Source of the DNA: an uncultured Flavonifractor sp. | GTDB taxonomy: Bacteria; Bacillota; Clostridia; Oscillospirales; Oscillospiraceae | Reading direction: 5' to 3' | Assembly: GCA_947346365.1 (NCBI GenBank) | Contig: CANAAV010000006.1 | Span: forward strand, 61,281 to 125,280 | DNA: 64,000 nt | Shown: positions 4,256 to 58,670 of the stretch, one piece after another | Layout of the letters: the number at the start of each line of letters is the position of its first letter | Position numbering within the stretch: position 1 is the stretch's first letter | The notes under the pieces: model-generated | Told to the model about the DNA's origin: nothing | Database searches by the model: none | What the model saw: the letters and a program-made list of their open reading frames with translations, nothing else | Program-made: the position numbers and the translations under genes

Positions 4256-5266
4256 ATGAATATTCTGGCAGTAGAATCCTCCTGCGACGAGACGGCGGTG
4301 GCCGTGGTGCGGGACGGGCGGACGGTGCTGGCCGACGCCGTGGCGTCCCAGGCGGATATGCACGCCATCTATGGCGGCGTAGTGCCTGAAATTGCCTCCC
4401 GTAAGCATATTGAGGCCATTGTGGGCCTGTCCGGCCAGGCCCTGGAGCAGGCGGGGATTGGGAAAACGGATTTGGACGCGGTGGCGGTGACCTACGCCCC
4501 GGGGCTTATCGGCGCGGTGCTGGTAGGGGTGAATTTTGCCAAAGCCGCCGCGTTTGCCCTGGAACTGCCCCTGGTGCCGGTGCACCATGTGCGGGGGCAC
4601 ATCGCCGCCAACTATATCGCCCACCCGGAGCTGGAGCCGCCCTTTGTCTGCCTGTGTGTTTCCGGGGGGAATACCCTCATCGTAGATGTACGGGGATATA
4701 CGGAGATGGAGGTTATGGGGGCCACACGGGACGATGCGGCGGGAGAGTGCTTTGACAAGGCTGCGCGGGTGCTGGGAATCGGCTATCCCGGCGGGGCTCC
4801 GATGGACCGGCTGGCCCAGGGAGGAGACGACAGGCGCTATGATCTGCCCCGCTCACATGTCAGCGGCGCGCCGCTGGACATGTCTTTTTCCGGGCTGAAG
4901 ACGGCGGTGATCAACCTGGTCCACAACGCCGGACAAAAGGGAGAGGCGCTGGACCTGCCCGGGTTGGCGGCCTCCTTTTCCGCCGCGGTCAGCGATACGC
5001 TGGTGCCCCGCACGATGGAGGCCGCCCGCCTGCGGGGGTACGGCAAGGTGGCGGTGGCCGGCGGGGTGGCGGCGAACAGCCGCATACGGGCCGATCTGGA
5101 GCGGGCCTGCCGACGCTCCGGCGACAAGCTGTACCTGCCACCGCTGTCCCTTTGCGGAGACAACGGGGCCATGATTGGCTGCCAGGGATATTACGAGTAC
5201 TTGGCAGGGGTGCGGGCCGGGATGGACCTGAACGCCTATGCCAACCGGGATATTGGAAAAGGCTGA
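4256..5266 (+). CDS. tsaD: tRNA N6-adenosine threonylcarbamoyltransferase
   Basis: A 336-residue ASKHA-fold enzyme that, with TsaB and TsaE, moves the threonylcarbamoyl group onto A37 of ANN-decoding tRNAs. Evidence: opening [16 protein letters not shown], the metal-binding HHVRGH (two His), CVSGGNT, the substrate loop GAPMDRLA, and [12 protein letters not shown] near the C-terminus. The ATG at 4256 is chosen over the upstream in-frame ATG inside rimI. Length is normal for the family. It is followed 13 bases later by guaA. Confidence 0.95.
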
Positions 5267-5279
5267 CACGGAGGATACT

Positions 5280-6815
5280 ATGCAGACGGTCATTATTTTA
5301 GATTTCGGTGGGCAGTATAATCAGTTGATTGCCCGCCGCGTGCGGGAATGCCATGTGTACTGCGAGGTAAAGCCCTACACCACGCCGGTGGAGGAGCTGC
5401 GGGCCATAGGACCGATTGGGATAATTTTCACCGGGGGACCCGGCTCCGTATACCTAGAGCATTCTCCCCAGGTGGACCGGGAAATCTTCCGCCTGGGCGT
5501 GCCCATCCTGGGCATCTGTTACGGCTGCCAGCTGATGGCTCACGCCCTGGGAGGCCAGGTCACGCCCGCTCAGGGAGACGCTGCCAGAGAGTATGGCAAG
5601 ACCTGCACGTATTATGATACCGCCTGTGCGCTGTTCCACGGCCTGCCTGCGCAGGGGATTTCATGGATGAGCCATGGGGACTACATGGCGAAGACACCAG
5701 ACGGTTTTGCCCTTGTGGCCCGCTCCGAAGCCTGTCCCAATGTGGGGATTGCTGACGAGACGCGGGGCTTTTACGGCGTGCAGTTTCATCCGGAGGTGGA
5801 CCACACCCAGGGCGGCGTGGATATGATCCGAAACTTTCTCTATAGGGTGTGCCATGCCAGCGGAGATTGGACTATGGGGGACTATAAGGCGGCGGCCATA
5901 GCCCAGCTCCGGGAGAAGGTTGGACAGGGTAGGGTGCTGTTGGCTCTCAGCGGTGGGGTGGACTCGTCCGTGGCGGCGGCGTTGCTGGCGGAGGCGGTGG
6001 GCCGCCAGCTCACCTGTGTCTTTGTGGACCACGGCCTGATGCGGTTAAACGAGGCAGACGAGGTGGAGGACGCCTTCTCTAAATGGAACCTCAACTTTGT
6101 CCGGGTGGACGCAGAGGCGCGCTTTTTGCTGAAGCTGGCGGGTGTGGACGAGCCGGAGCGGAAGCGGAAGATCATTGGCGAGGAATTTATTCGGGTCTTT
6201 GAAGAAGAAGCGAAAAGGATCGGAGCGGTAGATTTCTTGGCCCAGGGCACCATTTATCCCGATGTGATAGAATCAGGGGCAGGGGATGCGGCCGTAATCA
6301 AAAGCCACCACAACGTGGGCGGCCTGCCGGACTATGTGGATTTTCAAGAGATTTTAGAACCCTTGCGCATGCTGTTTAAGGATGAGGTGCGCCAGCTGGG
6401 CCGGGAGCTGGGCCTGCCGGAATATTTGGTATCGCGCCAACCCTTTCCCGGCCCGGGTCTAGCCATCCGCATTATTGGGGATATCACGAAGGAGAAAGCG
6501 GATATGCTCCGTCAGGCAGATTTTATTTTTCGGGAGGAACTGGCGGAAAGCGGTGAAGGCAACCGGTTGAGCCAGTATTTTGCCGTGCTGACCAATACCC
6601 GGTCGGTGGGTGTAATGGGGGATGGGCGCACCTATGACTACACACTGGCCCTCCGGGCGGTGACCACTTCTGATTTTATGACCGCAAATTGGGCGAGAAT
6701 ACCCTATGATGTGCTGGACCGGGTATCCACCCGTATCGTCAACGCGGTGAAGGGGATCAACCGGGTCGTGTATGATGTGACCAGTAAGCCGCCGGCGACG
6801 ATTGAGTGGGAATAA
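5280..6815 (+). CDS. guaA: GMP synthase (glutamine-hydrolysing)
   Basis: A 511-residue two-domain enzyme that converts XMP to GMP with ATP and glutamine. The class-I amidotransferase domain (1 to about 190) shows Cys80 in LGICYGCQ and the FHPEV His-Glu. The ATP-pyrophosphatase domain starts at the PP-loop [11 protein letters not shown], followed by the dimerisation domain ending KPPATIEWE. Translation starts at the ATG at 5280, after GGAGG. The last four codons and stop are the left attachment core of the prophage, so integration leaves the enzyme complete. Confidence 0.97.
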
Positions 6816-55381: not shown

Positions 55382-56494
55382 ATGTTTAACAATTTTGACA
55401 CACTCAAGCTGGCCGTGGAAACGGTACATCCGAACAACACGGTGTTGCTGGACGATATGGGGATGCCTTCCATTATGGTCCGTATTCCCAAATTCAAAAT
55501 TTCGGATGTGATTGAGGGAGGGTCTACGGCCACTTTTCCCGCTTTCATCGTGAATGGTGTGGAGGTTCCGGAGATTTTGATTTCCAAGTACCCCAATATC
55601 GTTATGAATGAGCGGGCCTATAGCCTTCCCATGCGTGACCCCAGGGCTTATGTGAATTACGACCAGGCCAAGCAGTATTGCCAGAACAAGGGGACTGGAT
55701 GGCATCTGATGTCCAATGCGGAGTGGATGGCTATTGCGTATTGGTGTAAGAAAAATGGCTTTGTGCCTGGCGGAAATACCAGCTATGGTTGCAATCATGC
55801 GGCGCCCCATGAAAAGGGAACTCCCAGCTATACATACGGTGAGGGAACGATTGGCCGGACCTTTACAGGGTCCGGCCCTGTTACTTGGGCGCACGATGGT
55901 ACGGCTGCCGGTATCTTTGACCTGTGCGGGAATGTGTGGGAATGGGTGTCTGGCCTGCGGCTGCACAATGGAGAAATCCAGGTGATTCCGGACAACAATT
56001 CTGCCAGGGGCGTGGATGAGAGCGCAACCAGTCCCTTGTGGCGGGCGATGTTGCAGGATGGTACTCTGGTAGCTCCTGGGCCTGCTGGGACGTTGAAGTA
56101 TGATAACTCTATTACCGGCGATGCAACGCAGACCAACCACGATATTGGTGGTGCTGCTGAGTTGAGCACGGTAAGGAATAACCCGATGTATACCGGTGGG
56201 GATGTGGACGACTATTACGGTTATCAGTATCAGACATATGAAAGCCTGGCGGCAAAAGCTGGTATCACAGTCCCGGAGATCGCCAAGGTGCTGGGTTTGT
56301 TCCCCACCAATCCTACGGCTGGCGGCCATGATGGTGATGGGCTGTGGGTTCGGAATTACGGAGAGCGGCTTCCTTTGCGCGGCGGCTACTGGGGCACTGC
56401 TTCCAGGTCCGGCGTGTTCGCGCTCTACCTGGCTGTCTCGCGCGCGAGCAGTGACCACCATGTTGGTTTCCGCGCCGCTTTTGTAAATCTGTAA
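55382..56494 (+). CDS. DGR target: lectin-fold tail-tip protein with variable repeat
   Basis: 370 residues from ATG 55382. The C-terminal about 280 residues have a formylglycine-enzyme/C-type-lectin fold (QYCQNKGTGWHLMSNAEWMAIAYW, GIFDLCGNVWEWVSG). The final 37 residues (330-366) are the variable repeat, LRGGYWGTASRSGVFALYLA..GFRAAF. It differs from the template at nine codons, all Asn, Asp or Glu codons in the template. This is the expected form of a DGR-diversified receptor-binding protein displayed at the tail tip. Confidence 0.93.
   Translation: MFNNFDTLKLAVETVHPNNTVLLDDMGMPSIMVRIPKFKISDVIEGGSTATFPAFIVNGVEVPEILISKYPNIVMNERAYSLPMRDPRAYVNYDQAKQYCQNKGTGWHLMSNAEWMAIAYWCKKNGFVPGGNTSYGCNHAAPHEKGTPSYTYGEGTIGRTFTGSGPVTWAHDGTAAGIFDLCGNVWEWVSGLRLHNGEIQVIPDNNSARGVDESATSPLWRAMLQDGTLVAPGPAGTLKYDNSITGDATQTNHDIGGAAELSTVRNNPMYTGGDVDDYYGYQYQTYESLAAKAGITVPEIAKVLGLFPTNPTAGGHDGDGLWVRNYGERLPLRGGYWGTASRSGVFALYLAVSRASSDHHVGFRAAFVNL
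56368..56479 (+). repeat. Variable repeat (VR) of the DGR
   Basis: 112 bases aligned without gaps to TR 57204-57315 (offset 836). There are 11 differences: all lie at adenines of TR (five A to C, four A to G... direction by site given in the findings). The 3' end TTTCCGCGCCGCT is invariant and serves as the initiation-of-mutagenic-homing sequence. Confidence 0.93.
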
Positions 56495-56517
56495 ATCTGG
56501 TATTTGTAATCTGGTTT

Positions 56518-56535
56518 CCGACGCGGTAGCGTCGG
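56518..56535 (+). other. DGR hairpin/cruciform after VR
   Basis: CCGACGC-GGTA-GCGTCGG: 7-bp stem with a GRNA-type tetraloop, 38 bases after the VR end. Such hairpins stimulate retrohoming in studied DGRs. Confidence 0.75.
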
Positions 56536-56539
56536 TTTA

Positions 56540-56566
56540 CCCCTCCGGGGCAAAGCCCCGGAGGGG
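56540..56566 (+). terminator. Hairpin after the DGR target gene
   Basis: CCCCTCCGGGGC-aaa-GCCCCGGAGGGG, a perfect 12-bp stem without a clear U-tract (TCGCGTAAAATTTT follows). Likely limits late transcription into the avd/TR/RT part. Confidence 0.6.
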
Positions 56567-56652
56567 TCGCGTAAAATTTTGAAAATGGGGGTATTTTTTT
56601 CTATGCCTTTGTGGTAAAATTTTAAGCAATTCCTGTCGAAGGGGGATGGAGG

Positions 56653-57183
56653 ATGCCAGAAGGAGACGCTAACGAGCAGTTAGATTCGGAGAAATTGGTC
56701 GTTCAGAAAGGCGATCTGCTTATCCAACAGAAAATCTATGACATGATACTCTACGCATACCCAGCGCTGGAGCAGATGCCTAAATCGCAAAAATTTAGCC
56801 TAGCGCAGGATATGAAACACTGTATGGATAAAATTATGCGATTGACCATTTCGGCCAATAAGAAATATACAAAGCGCACCACGCTCCAAGAGCTTGACGT
56901 CGAAATTGCTGCCCTCAAGATTTATCTGCGGATAGCTTACGACTTGAAGTACCTCCCTCCCAAAAAATATGAAGTTTGGACAGGGATGATGGTGGAGATC
57001 GGGAAAATGGTGGGCGGCTGGATTCGGTCCCAGCGGGAGGCTGCCGAGCCGCCAAAACCGGATGCCGAGAAGCGGTACTGTTCTGAGTGTTCAGCAGAAA
57101 TCCCGGAGAAGGCGTTCAAGTATTCCATGGACCATTTTGGGCGGGCTTTGTGCTACAAATGCCAGAGGAAAAACAAAAAGTAA
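56653..57183 (+). CDS. avd: Avd accessory protein with C-terminal zinc finger
   Basis: 176 residues from ATG 56653. Residues about 15-130 are the Avd four-helix bundle (LLIQQKIYDMILYAYPALEQMPKSQKFSLAQDMKHCMDKIMRL.., LDVEIAALKIYLRIAYDLKYLPPKKYEVW), which forms a pentamer that binds RT and template RNA. Residues about 140-173 add a zinc finger (RYCSECSAEIPEKAF..MDHFGRALCYKCQ) not found in classic Avd. The same finger type ends the annealing-like protein at 15323. Confidence 0.88.
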   Translation: MPEGDANEQLDSEKLVVQKGDLLIQQKIYDMILYAYPALEQMPKSQKFSLAQDMKHCMDKIMRLTISANKKYTKRTTLQELDVEIAALKIYLRIAYDLKYLPPKKYEVWTGMMVEIGKMVGGWIRSQREAAEPPKPDAEKRYCSECSAEIPEKAFKYSMDHFGRALCYKCQRKNKK

Positions 57184-57203
57184 ATCTATGGGGACAAATC
57201 GGC

Positions 57204-57315
57204 GCTTCCTTTGCGCGGCGGCAACTGGGACAATGCTTCCAGGTCCGGCGTGTTCGCGCTCAACCTGAATGAATCGCGCGCGAACAGTAACCACAATGTT
57301 GGTTTCCGCGCCGCT
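57204..57315 (+). repeat. Template repeat (TR) of the DGR
   Basis: 112 bases, mostly non-coding, 20 bases after avd. In the VR frame it reads LRGGNWDNASRSGVFALNLNESRANSNHNVGFRAAL: adenine-rich AAC/AAT codons at the diversified sites, which avoid stop codons when A is mutated. The rest of the 57184-57491 gap would form the template RNA that primes cDNA synthesis; no other gene is seen there. Confidence 0.93.
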
Positions 57316-57491
57316 CTACCCTCCAAGCCAGATATTCAAGGCTTACGGGCCTGGTTTCAGTGCAGAGGGGATAAAGGGACTTATATCCGGCCTATCCTTC
57401 GGGATGGCAAAAACCGATTTCATGGAAGCCGTTAGTAGCCTGCCGAAAAGCAGGTGAACGCCGTGACACATGAACCCTTCGGGGGGAGAAT

Positions 57492-58670
57492 ATGAAATCT
57501 ATTAAGCACATCAAAGAGAAGGTTACAGAGTACGAAAATCTGTACAACGCCTATCTCCACTCCAGACGAAGCAAGCGGTTTAGAAATGAAGTTTTGGAGT
57601 TCTCTGCAAATTTAGAGGACAACCTTCATGAACTGCAAACAGCTCTTCGTAACCAAACATATCGTCCGGGCCCTTACAAAAAGCGAGTGATTCATGATCC
57701 TGTTGATCGACTTATCATGTGGCAGGATTTTGTGCATCGCGTTGTTCAATGGGCAGTATATCAGATTGTCAATCCGGAATTTGTGAGAGGCTACATTGAG
57801 GATTCCTATGCCTGCATCAAAGGTCGTGGCTCTGATGCTGCCGCCCAGCGGTTGTTTTATTTCATGCAGCAGGCCGGGCGTCTGGAGAAAAATGCGGGAG
57901 TTGATGTGCATGGTAAACCGAATAGACGTTTTTATTTGGAAAAGTTAGATACCAGCAAATTTTTTTATCGGATAGATCATCAGGTCTCTATGGATTTAAT
58001 CGGTCGTAAATGCAATTACGACCCATGGCTCATGTGGCTAATGGATCTTTTTGTTAATGCAGAAGGGGAAAAATTTGGATTTCCTCCGGGGATGGGCGTC
58101 AAGGATGTAACGCCCGATGAGATGGTAGCGGATAAGGGATTAGCGGTTGGCAGCCTTCTCAATCAGATGCTCGCAAATGTAAATCAAAATGAAGTGGACC
58201 ATTTCGCAAAGCGGCAACTGCGGATTCATTACTATGTGCGATACATGGATGACATTGTAATTCTCTCCGATAGCAGGGAGCAACTGTGCGACTGGCGTCG
58301 CCAAATTGAGGGGTTCATGCGTGATCGTCTCAAACTGGAGTTAAACCCTAAAAAGTCGTTTATCCAGCCACTTTCCCACGGTATTGATTTTTGCCAATAC
58401 CGTATCTATCCAGATCATGTACGTTTGAAAAAAGGAACCGCTCTACGGATGAAGCGGAATCTGAAACGGATTCAGAAGCTATATGCCGAGGGGAAGATCG
58501 ACCTTGAGCGCGCCCAGCGGACGGTAACTTCTTACATGGGGCTGCTGTCCCACTGTGACAGCTACCAGCTTCGGAAAACTATTTTCGGTGAGTACAGTGA
58601 AACGGAGTGGATAGAGGGTTGGTTTGTCTTAAAGCGAGATAGTGAGAAAATAGAGGCACACGGCGAGTAA
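57492..58670 (+). CDS. DGR reverse transcriptase
   Basis: 392 residues from ATG 57492 after GGGGGGAG. RT motifs: RPGPYKKRVIHDPVDRLI (motif 1), GYIEDSYACIKGRG (motif 2), KLDTSKFFYRIDH (motif A, Asp153), GLAVGSLLNQMLANV (motif 4), YYVRYMDDIVIL (catalytic YMDD 251-254) and LELNPKKS. No maturase or endonuclease domain follows, as in DGR enzymes. Motif 4 reads NQ where most DGR enzymes read SQ. It copies TR RNA with adenine-specific error and, with Avd, delivers cDNA to VR. Confidence 0.95.
   Translation: MKSIKHIKEKVTEYENLYNAYLHSRRSKRFRNEVLEFSANLEDNLHELQTALRNQTYRPGPYKKRVIHDPVDRLIMWQDFVHRVVQWAVYQIVNPEFVRGYIEDSYACIKGRGSDAAAQRLFYFMQQAGRLEKNAGVDVHGKPNRRFYLEKLDTSKFFYRIDHQVSMDLIGRKCNYDPWLMWLMDLFVNAEGEKFGFPPGMGVKDVTPDEMVADKGLAVGSLLNQMLANVNQNEVDHFAKRQLRIHYYVRYMDDIVILSDSREQLCDWRRQIEGFMRDRLKLELNPKKSFIQPLSHGIDFCQYRIYPDHVRLKKGTALRMKRNLKRIQKLYAEGKIDLERAQRTVTSYMGLLSHCDSYQLRKTIFGEYSETEWIEGWFVLKRDSEKIEAHGE

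Follow-up and report, generated by a model that had tools for sequence, protein, structure and literature searches.

Does a locus in a prophage of an uncultured Flavonifractor sp., a gut bacterium, encode a complete diversity-generating retroelement (DGR), and does it keep to the ordinary design with one template? The stretch of DNA analyzed, called here the window, comprises 64,000 nucleotides (nt) of contig CANAAV010000006.1 (assembly GCA_947346365.1, positions 61,281 to 125,280 of the forward strand), with the element at positions 55,382 to 58,670. An earlier note, made by a model from the letters of this DNA, proposed a complete DGR on the tail tip of a temperate myophage and evidence of past mutagenic homing. 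Our analysis leaves very little doubt that the window carries a complete canonical DGR of a temperate myophage. Taken alone, the element is ordinary: a complete phage DGR with one template that probably works.

When recomputed from the window, the variable repeat (VR, 56368-56479) and the template repeat (TR, 57204-57315) aligned without a gap over 112 nt with 11 differences, all of them on TR adenines (three A to T, four A to G and four A to C). Nine codons of the VR were changed in comparison with the TR (Asn to Tyr, Asp to Gly, Asn to Thr, Asn to Tyr, Asn to Ala, Glu to Val, Asn to Ser, Asn to Asp and Asn to His). The coordinates, length, gaplessness, substitutions and codon changes given in the earlier note were all reproduced exactly. 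Out of 20 TR adenines, 11 were changed and nine kept, and no difference fell on a VR adenine. The hypergeometric probability that 11 out of 11 random differences among 112 positions would hit TR adenines is 3.2e-10; this adenine-only pattern lends good support to the claim of past mutagenic homing. The single TR fully explained the VR, with no non-adenine difference left over. The likeness stopped outside the 112 nt at both edges, the TR was readable in the same frame as the VR (LPLRGGNWDNASRSG...), and the two copies were the only ones in the genome (2.59 Mb, 44 contigs, 85.8% complete). The parts of the element are as follows:

55382..56494, + strand: target gene, 370 aa, phrog_2889 / FGE-sulfatase (C-type-lectin-like) tail protein with the VR near its C-terminus (open reading frame, family and profile matches).
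56368..56479, + strand: VR, 112 nt, ending four codons before the target stop (alignment to the TR).
56466..56479, + strand: GC-rich 3' end of the VR (GTTTCCGCGCCGCT), the same in the TR; presumed site of initiation of mutagenic homing (IMH), from the alignment and the analogy with BPP-1 (PMC3240598).
56518..56535, + strand: hairpin CCGACGC-GGTA-GCGTCGG, 7-bp GC-rich stem and GGTA (GRNA-type) loop, 38 nt 3' of the VR and beyond the target stop codon.
56539..56567, + strand: second inverted repeat, 13 bp with a 3-nt loop, terminator-like (inverted-repeat scan of the window).
56653..57183, + strand: avd, 176 aa, with a C-terminal extension (NCBIfam, Pfam and PHROG matches, alignment).
57079..57162, + strand: CxxC...CxxC ribbon of Avd, Cys143, 146, 167 and 170 (Cys residues invariant in seven aligned Avds; phrog_13782 match, residues 121-176).
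57204..57315, + strand: TR, one unit (alignment; avd-RT interval of 312 nt).
57316..57491, + strand: spacer between the TR and the RT gene, 176 nt, with a conserved predicted RNA structure common to the full-length TR spacers of relatives (alignment, RNAalifold).
57492..58670, + strand: DGR reverse transcriptase (RT), 392 aa, YMDD at 58242-58253 (PHROG and PDB profile match).

The open reading frames of the target, avd and RT were intact. The target matched phrog_2889 over residues 3-369 and an FGE-sulfatase domain over residues 82-191, and its family profile led to PDB 5vf4 chain A (profile positions 5-367, E 5e-98), the variable protein of a DGR with the C-type-lectin type of fold. The VR thus lies at the C-terminus of a putative ligand-binding protein. 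Avd scored 119.7 bits with NCBIfam NF033474 DivGenRetAVD (cut-off of 80) and also matched Pfam bAvd. The RT matched phrog_1423 (E 3e-114). Among PDB entries, its family profile scored best against 8ub7 chain A (E 1.6e-48), and another chain of 8ub7 is named Avd. With the target, Avd, the YMDD RT and the GRNA-type hairpin all identified by family models or sequence, the proposal of a complete system held. The Rfam scan of the whole window gave no match, and the tRNA search found none there. A second RT (phrog_1423, with YADD) was encoded in the same genome on contig C8 (75263-76153; L015, L186), beside tail-like phage genes. It was dropped as a second DGR, the 16 kb around it being without a convincing adenine-type VR/TR pair (one 64-nt pair, four of nine differences at A).

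The prophage genes include those for the tail sheath, tape measure, baseplate J, baseplate hub, fibre-like proteins, major head protein, terminase, endolysin and integrase. The phage was assigned to temperate myophages because of its tail sheath, major head protein, terminase, endolysin and integrase genes, and the same assignment in the earlier note stands, the tape measure, baseplate J and baseplate hub genes being present as well. The target would sit at the tail tip, judging by its place behind the baseplate genes and by homology to the Mtd-like gene of the Faecalibacterium phage FP_Lagaffe (MG711461). The search of phage records by DNA similarity returned 10, none with more than 6% of the query covered, and no protein relative of at least 60% identity was present among 50,697 phage records (RT 110, target 54 and Avd 21 records).

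FP_Lagaffe resembles the window in the order of baseplate J, baseplate I, three small genes, target, Avd, RT and endolysin, with a target of the same family (43% identity over 99% of the target) and 38% identity in the RT. Like the window, it has one TR between Avd and RT, and 13 out of 13 VR/TR differences were at adenines (locus L083). Its Avd, unlike that of the window, is without a ribbon by the pattern used, and the sequences are distant from each other. The integrases also differ, being of the IS30 type in FP_Lagaffe (PMC5883640) and matching PHROG integrase family 1 in the window; FP_Lagaffe is reported to make virions, with VR variation in reads (PMC5883640). The window element is an ordinary single-template DGR, syntenic with the DGR of FP_Lagaffe. 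Its Avd and RT profiles matched PDB 4dwl and 8ub7, respectively, presumably both BPP-1 proteins. The 4dwl Avd is without the ribbon stretch (a chain of 131 residues matching profile positions 12-123 only), whereas the window Avd is ribboned, and the BPP-1 target Mtd belongs to another subfamily. The DGR of the Bordetella phage BPP-1 shares with the window the TR-to-VR adenine mutagenesis and the GRNA-loop hairpin 3' of the VR (PMC3240598).

The relatives fetched for comparison comprised L017-L024, viral contigs and genomes with RTs 73-84% identical to that of the window, 41 target relatives (L025-L065) and the best 80 of 301 RT relatives from a profile search. From these loci, 91 distinct VR/TR pairs were selected for at least five adenine and at most two other differences. 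TR adenines accounted for 1096 of their 1119 differences (a pooled figure that is partly circular because the pairs were preselected for few non-adenine differences), and a mean of 51% of TR adenines was changed. A hairpin with a 4-nt GRNA loop stood 3' of 63 of the 91 distinct VRs and in 0 of 89 5' controls, L021 being scored on its second, terminator-like hairpin and L083 counting as without a hairpin by that rule.

Comparison of siblings had been suggested in the earlier note as proof of activity, and adenine-type VR variation over an unchanged TR was indeed found, in relatives. Six pairs of sister phages with identical TRs had VRs differing at 15, 18, 15, 7, 11 and 12 sites, of which 13, 18, 14, 7, 10 and 12, respectively, were at TR adenines (74 of 78 in total). 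The compared flanks were identical in four of the six pairs (L031/L033, for which only 23 nt 3' of the TR were comparable, L074/L075, L076/L077 and L096/L097), and 42 of the 45 VR differences in these four were at TR adenines. The flanks of L035/L037 differed at 0/600 sites 5' of the VR and at 9/476 and 1/921 sites 3' of it, and those of L058/L060 at 79/600, 8/443 and 27/1200.

The spacer between the TR and the RT gene was conserved too. An alignment of 21 spacers (20 distinct) joined it to those that follow TR units in relatives, the truncated ones (L018 T1, L019 T1, L023 T2 and T3) being left out. RNAalifold gave 31 pairs, in 17 of which each side had changed at least once. Spacer cells were pairing in 92.2% of cases, against 82.6% in shuffles (0/500 as high) and 34-50% when slid, a control that favors the structure because these very sequences had been used to obtain it. 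Further pair types were unexceptional, 60/500 shuffles being as high. A covarying structured RNA, conserved among the relatives, is predicted behind the TR.

In the proposed mechanism, the TR and the structured spacer would be transcribed, and the RT together with Avd would copy the TR RNA into cDNA with errors at adenines. This cDNA would then take the place of the VR near the end of the target gene, with the GC-rich 3' end of the repeat and the GRNA-loop hairpin downstream serving as guides. The nine changed codons would lie on the lectin-like surface of the tail protein, probably its receptor-binding tip. The window copy may still be active.

Several observations weigh against this reading. 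GxxxSQ is the typical motif of DGR RTs, and the window RT reads GSLLNQ at that place. In L024, a ribbon-Avd relative with a complete interval and a single TR, the VR had 29 non-adenine differences to that TR. Phage DGR hairpins elsewhere have stems of 7-10 bp, GRNA loops and a distance of 4-34 nt from the VR (PMC3240598), slightly below the 38 nt of the window hairpin. No sibling of the window phage was found. The TR-junction pattern hit one locus only in viral contigs, the contig of L017; the TR pattern hit 1/400 genomes of the family, and the TR plus spacer DNA 1/394 genomes of the order (both sets draws from larger groups), the hit being each time the own genome. The activity of the window copy has to be judged, as a consequence, from one VR.

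This single VR, in a genome assembled incompletely, and the want of a sibling genome in the searches would suit an element that once worked and is now silent in the prophage, its VR frozen. We regard such a fossil as unlikely: the three genes are open, the YMDD motif, the hairpin and the spacer RNA structure are kept, and the sister phages vary. L020, possibly a decayed relative, looks different, with a stop in the RT and no avd match in front of it. That the 112-nt likeness is a relic of gene duplication, with the adenine bias due to chance or codon bias, is refuted for practical purposes. The TR is readable in the VR frame, as any copy would be, but the adenine bias (p = 3.2e-10, as above), the adjoining RT and Avd genes and the same pattern in the 91 preselected related pairs speak against it.

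The ribbon of the window Avd led to a distinct group of loci. By the CxxC...CxxC pattern in the Avd part behind the helix-bundle, a ribbon was called in 13 of 118 Avds, one of them on a repeat contig: the window, L018, L019, L021-L024, L069-L072 and L181. The pattern was not found in the 105 other Avds of the fetched loci, a few of which are cut by contig ends. Between avd and RT, two TR units (designated T1, T2 and so on) were present in L021 and L022, three in L018, L019 and L181, and four in L023 and L072, whereas the window has one. The contigs of L070 and L089 ended inside the array, with at least two and at least three units, respectively. The stretches from target to RT were assembled without N (in L070 and L089, the part present), except in L019 with 176 N in the VR. 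The RT of L181 (reverse strand) has YNDD instead of YMDD, and some tens of residues appear to be inserted ahead of its catalytic part. The other DGRs of the family that were open to testing had a single unit.

The association was analyzed in 109 loci with avd and a downstream RT, 20 ids having been dropped (19 repeats, and L181, for which the reverse complement was used instead). The set still contains near-copies, the 99 loci without a ribbon representing 82 distinct RTs. The avd-RT interval measured 608-1168 nt in seven of ten ribbon loci and 275-312 nt in the window, L024 and L071. In the 99 others it was 273-471 nt, except for L006 with 609 nt and one TR. Within the interval, the best internal 70-nt match reached 73-97% identity in the seven loci with arrays, 43-44% in the window, L024 and L071 and at most 51% in the 99 others. 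Tandem arrays were counted in 7/10 ribbon-Avd loci versus 0/99 others (Fisher p = 4e-9), although these are not independent events because most of the ten belong to one RT clade. The arrays that were counted occurred only with a ribbon Avd. The first array screen accepted VR/TR pairs with at most two non-adenine differences and missed L018, L019, L023, L070 and L181 because of that limit; the later screen was independent of the VR.

L072 and L089 come from separate assemblies; their units follow in the same order, and their RT genes are 96% alike (40/1119 nt differ). Between the two, TR units differed at 6/293 sites and spacers at 33/536 (Fisher p = 0.009), which suggests a constraint on the TR units. 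T2, T3 and the first two spacers account for this contrast, which is absent in T4 (5/114) and the last spacer (5/172). A-to-other changes made up two of the five differences between L072:6473-6586 and L089:544-657 and both of the two between L020:5724-5834 and L019:5724-5834. From these small numbers, it looks as if TR units were now and then targets too.

We then fitted 12 VRs of the ribbon-Avd group to TR units with adenine changes free. One own unit explained five of them: the VRs of the window (11 adenine and 0 other differences), L071 (11 and 0), L017 (9 and 0), L022 (from T2; 9 and 0) and L072 (from T2 of four; 9 and 1). The L021 VR followed T1 in its 5' half and T2 in its 3' half, with 8 adenine and 0 other differences (best single unit, 5 other). 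The L181 VR followed T2 and then T3, with 6 adenine differences and 1 other (best single unit, 7 other). After the partner was swapped for units of other loci, at best 2 other differences remained for L021 (112 combinations) and 5 for L181 (162). At informative sites, where the templates differ and neither has A, one crossover fitted 7/7 in L021 and 17/17 in L181, the template pair having been chosen beforehand as the best pair. On these fits, the VRs of L021 and L181 are two-template mosaics, and the RT-proximal unit is the source of the 3' half in both. The L018 VR combined its own T2 for the 5' half with an L019/L017-type unit for the 3' half (11 adenine differences and 1 other), the latter being absent from the array of L018 itself. 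The crossover windows spanned columns 29-65, 38-65 and 43-59 of 117, and the conserved repeat centre is common to all. In BPP-1, information begins to be transferred at the repeat's 3' end; homology between TR and VR is required for the 5' junction, which template switching may produce (PMC3240598). The mosaics could have arisen by a switch between units of one transcript, by two successive partial homings or by ordinary recombination, and the data fit all three alike.

Other VRs of the group speak against the mosaic reading. Those of L020 and L070 were not explained by known own units (at least 19 non-adenine differences for any single one), and units may be missing from these contigs. The VR of L024, with its complete interval and one TR, likewise stays unexplained by that TR (the 29 non-adenine differences given above). 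The L023 VR (4327-4438) is identical to unit T3 (5572-5683) over 112 nt, a result hardly to be expected if T3, with its 11 A, had been the template of adenine mutagenesis. The L024 VR (4910-5021), on another contig of the same bin, equals that of L023 but for one base. A stored variant, transfer between phages or assembly trouble may account for this likeness. In L019 (4258-4477, the Anaerotruncus sp. G3 copy), the VR is interrupted by the 176 N, and the 44 nt that follow are the same as the terminal 44 nt of array unit T2, which is adenine-poor (6 A in 114). In L017 (3601-3900) and L020 (5429-5723), the VR is joined straight to an array spacer, with avd missing, and L017 showed 0 differences from L019 in the RT (1164 nt), T3 (111) and the T2 spacer (181). 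As avd-deleted DGRs both were dropped, assembly collapse being as likely because the VR abuts the array spacer and may equal one array unit; neither was counted as an array.

The one TR unit of the window may be what is left of several, the rest having been lost by phage recombination or assembly collapse, a history that we hold possible but less likely than not. The 2-4 units in seven of ten ribbon-Avd loci with a complete avd-RT interval agree with such a loss, as do the window spacer, nearest (75%) to the RT-proximal spacer of L019/L017, and the window RT, which groups with RTs of array-bearing loci in a clade of full support (the order inside the clade being unresolved). On the other hand, the single unit accounts for the whole VR, L024 and L071 of the same group are also single, and the 312-nt interval is without an internal repeat, its best 70-nt match of 43% being that of single-unit loci. 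For the lineage as a whole, we consider the following picture evenly poised between right and wrong. Ribbon-Avd DGRs would carry a tandem array of alternative templates served by one RT, and their VRs would derive from one unit or be mosaics switching in the repeat centre, with adenine mutation joined by the shuffling of half-templates. The arrays of some members would include adenine-poor units equal to the VR or resembling it, as if they were stored variants, and the window would represent the single-template state, either ancestral or collapsed.

DGRs with more than one TR are on record, e.g., in Stenotrophomonas sp. SKA14 with two TRs and six VRs, and 216 of 271 multi-VR DGRs have one TR, which by subtraction leaves 55 with more (PMC6642488). 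Such systems have several VRs or target genes, in contrast to the tandem TRs with one VR in the arrays of the window's lineage, and the parts of that paper at hand describe neither tandem TR units feeding one VR nor mosaic VRs. The literature search, for which most subscription-only papers were outside reach, found no tandem TR array feeding one VR, no mosaic VR and nothing in print on a ribbon Avd. No such array or mosaic appeared in the available parts of PMC8144416, PMC4891356, PMC3521204, PMC11792537 and PMC12875486, and the keyword search of PMC10053308, PMC8867640 and PMC10907252 gave nothing on tandem TRs or mosaic VRs. The multi-template variant in the window's lineage is apparently undescribed.

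Alone, the element of the window joins a long list of well-formed phage DGRs. Its greater value is as the plain member of a group whose number of templates ranges from one to four. Comparison of single-template and multi-template members of this group could show whether the RTs of DGRs switch templates, how templates are gained and lost and what purpose the Avd ribbon has. If mosaic VRs are general, the diversity created by DGRs would not be limited to the adenines of one template.

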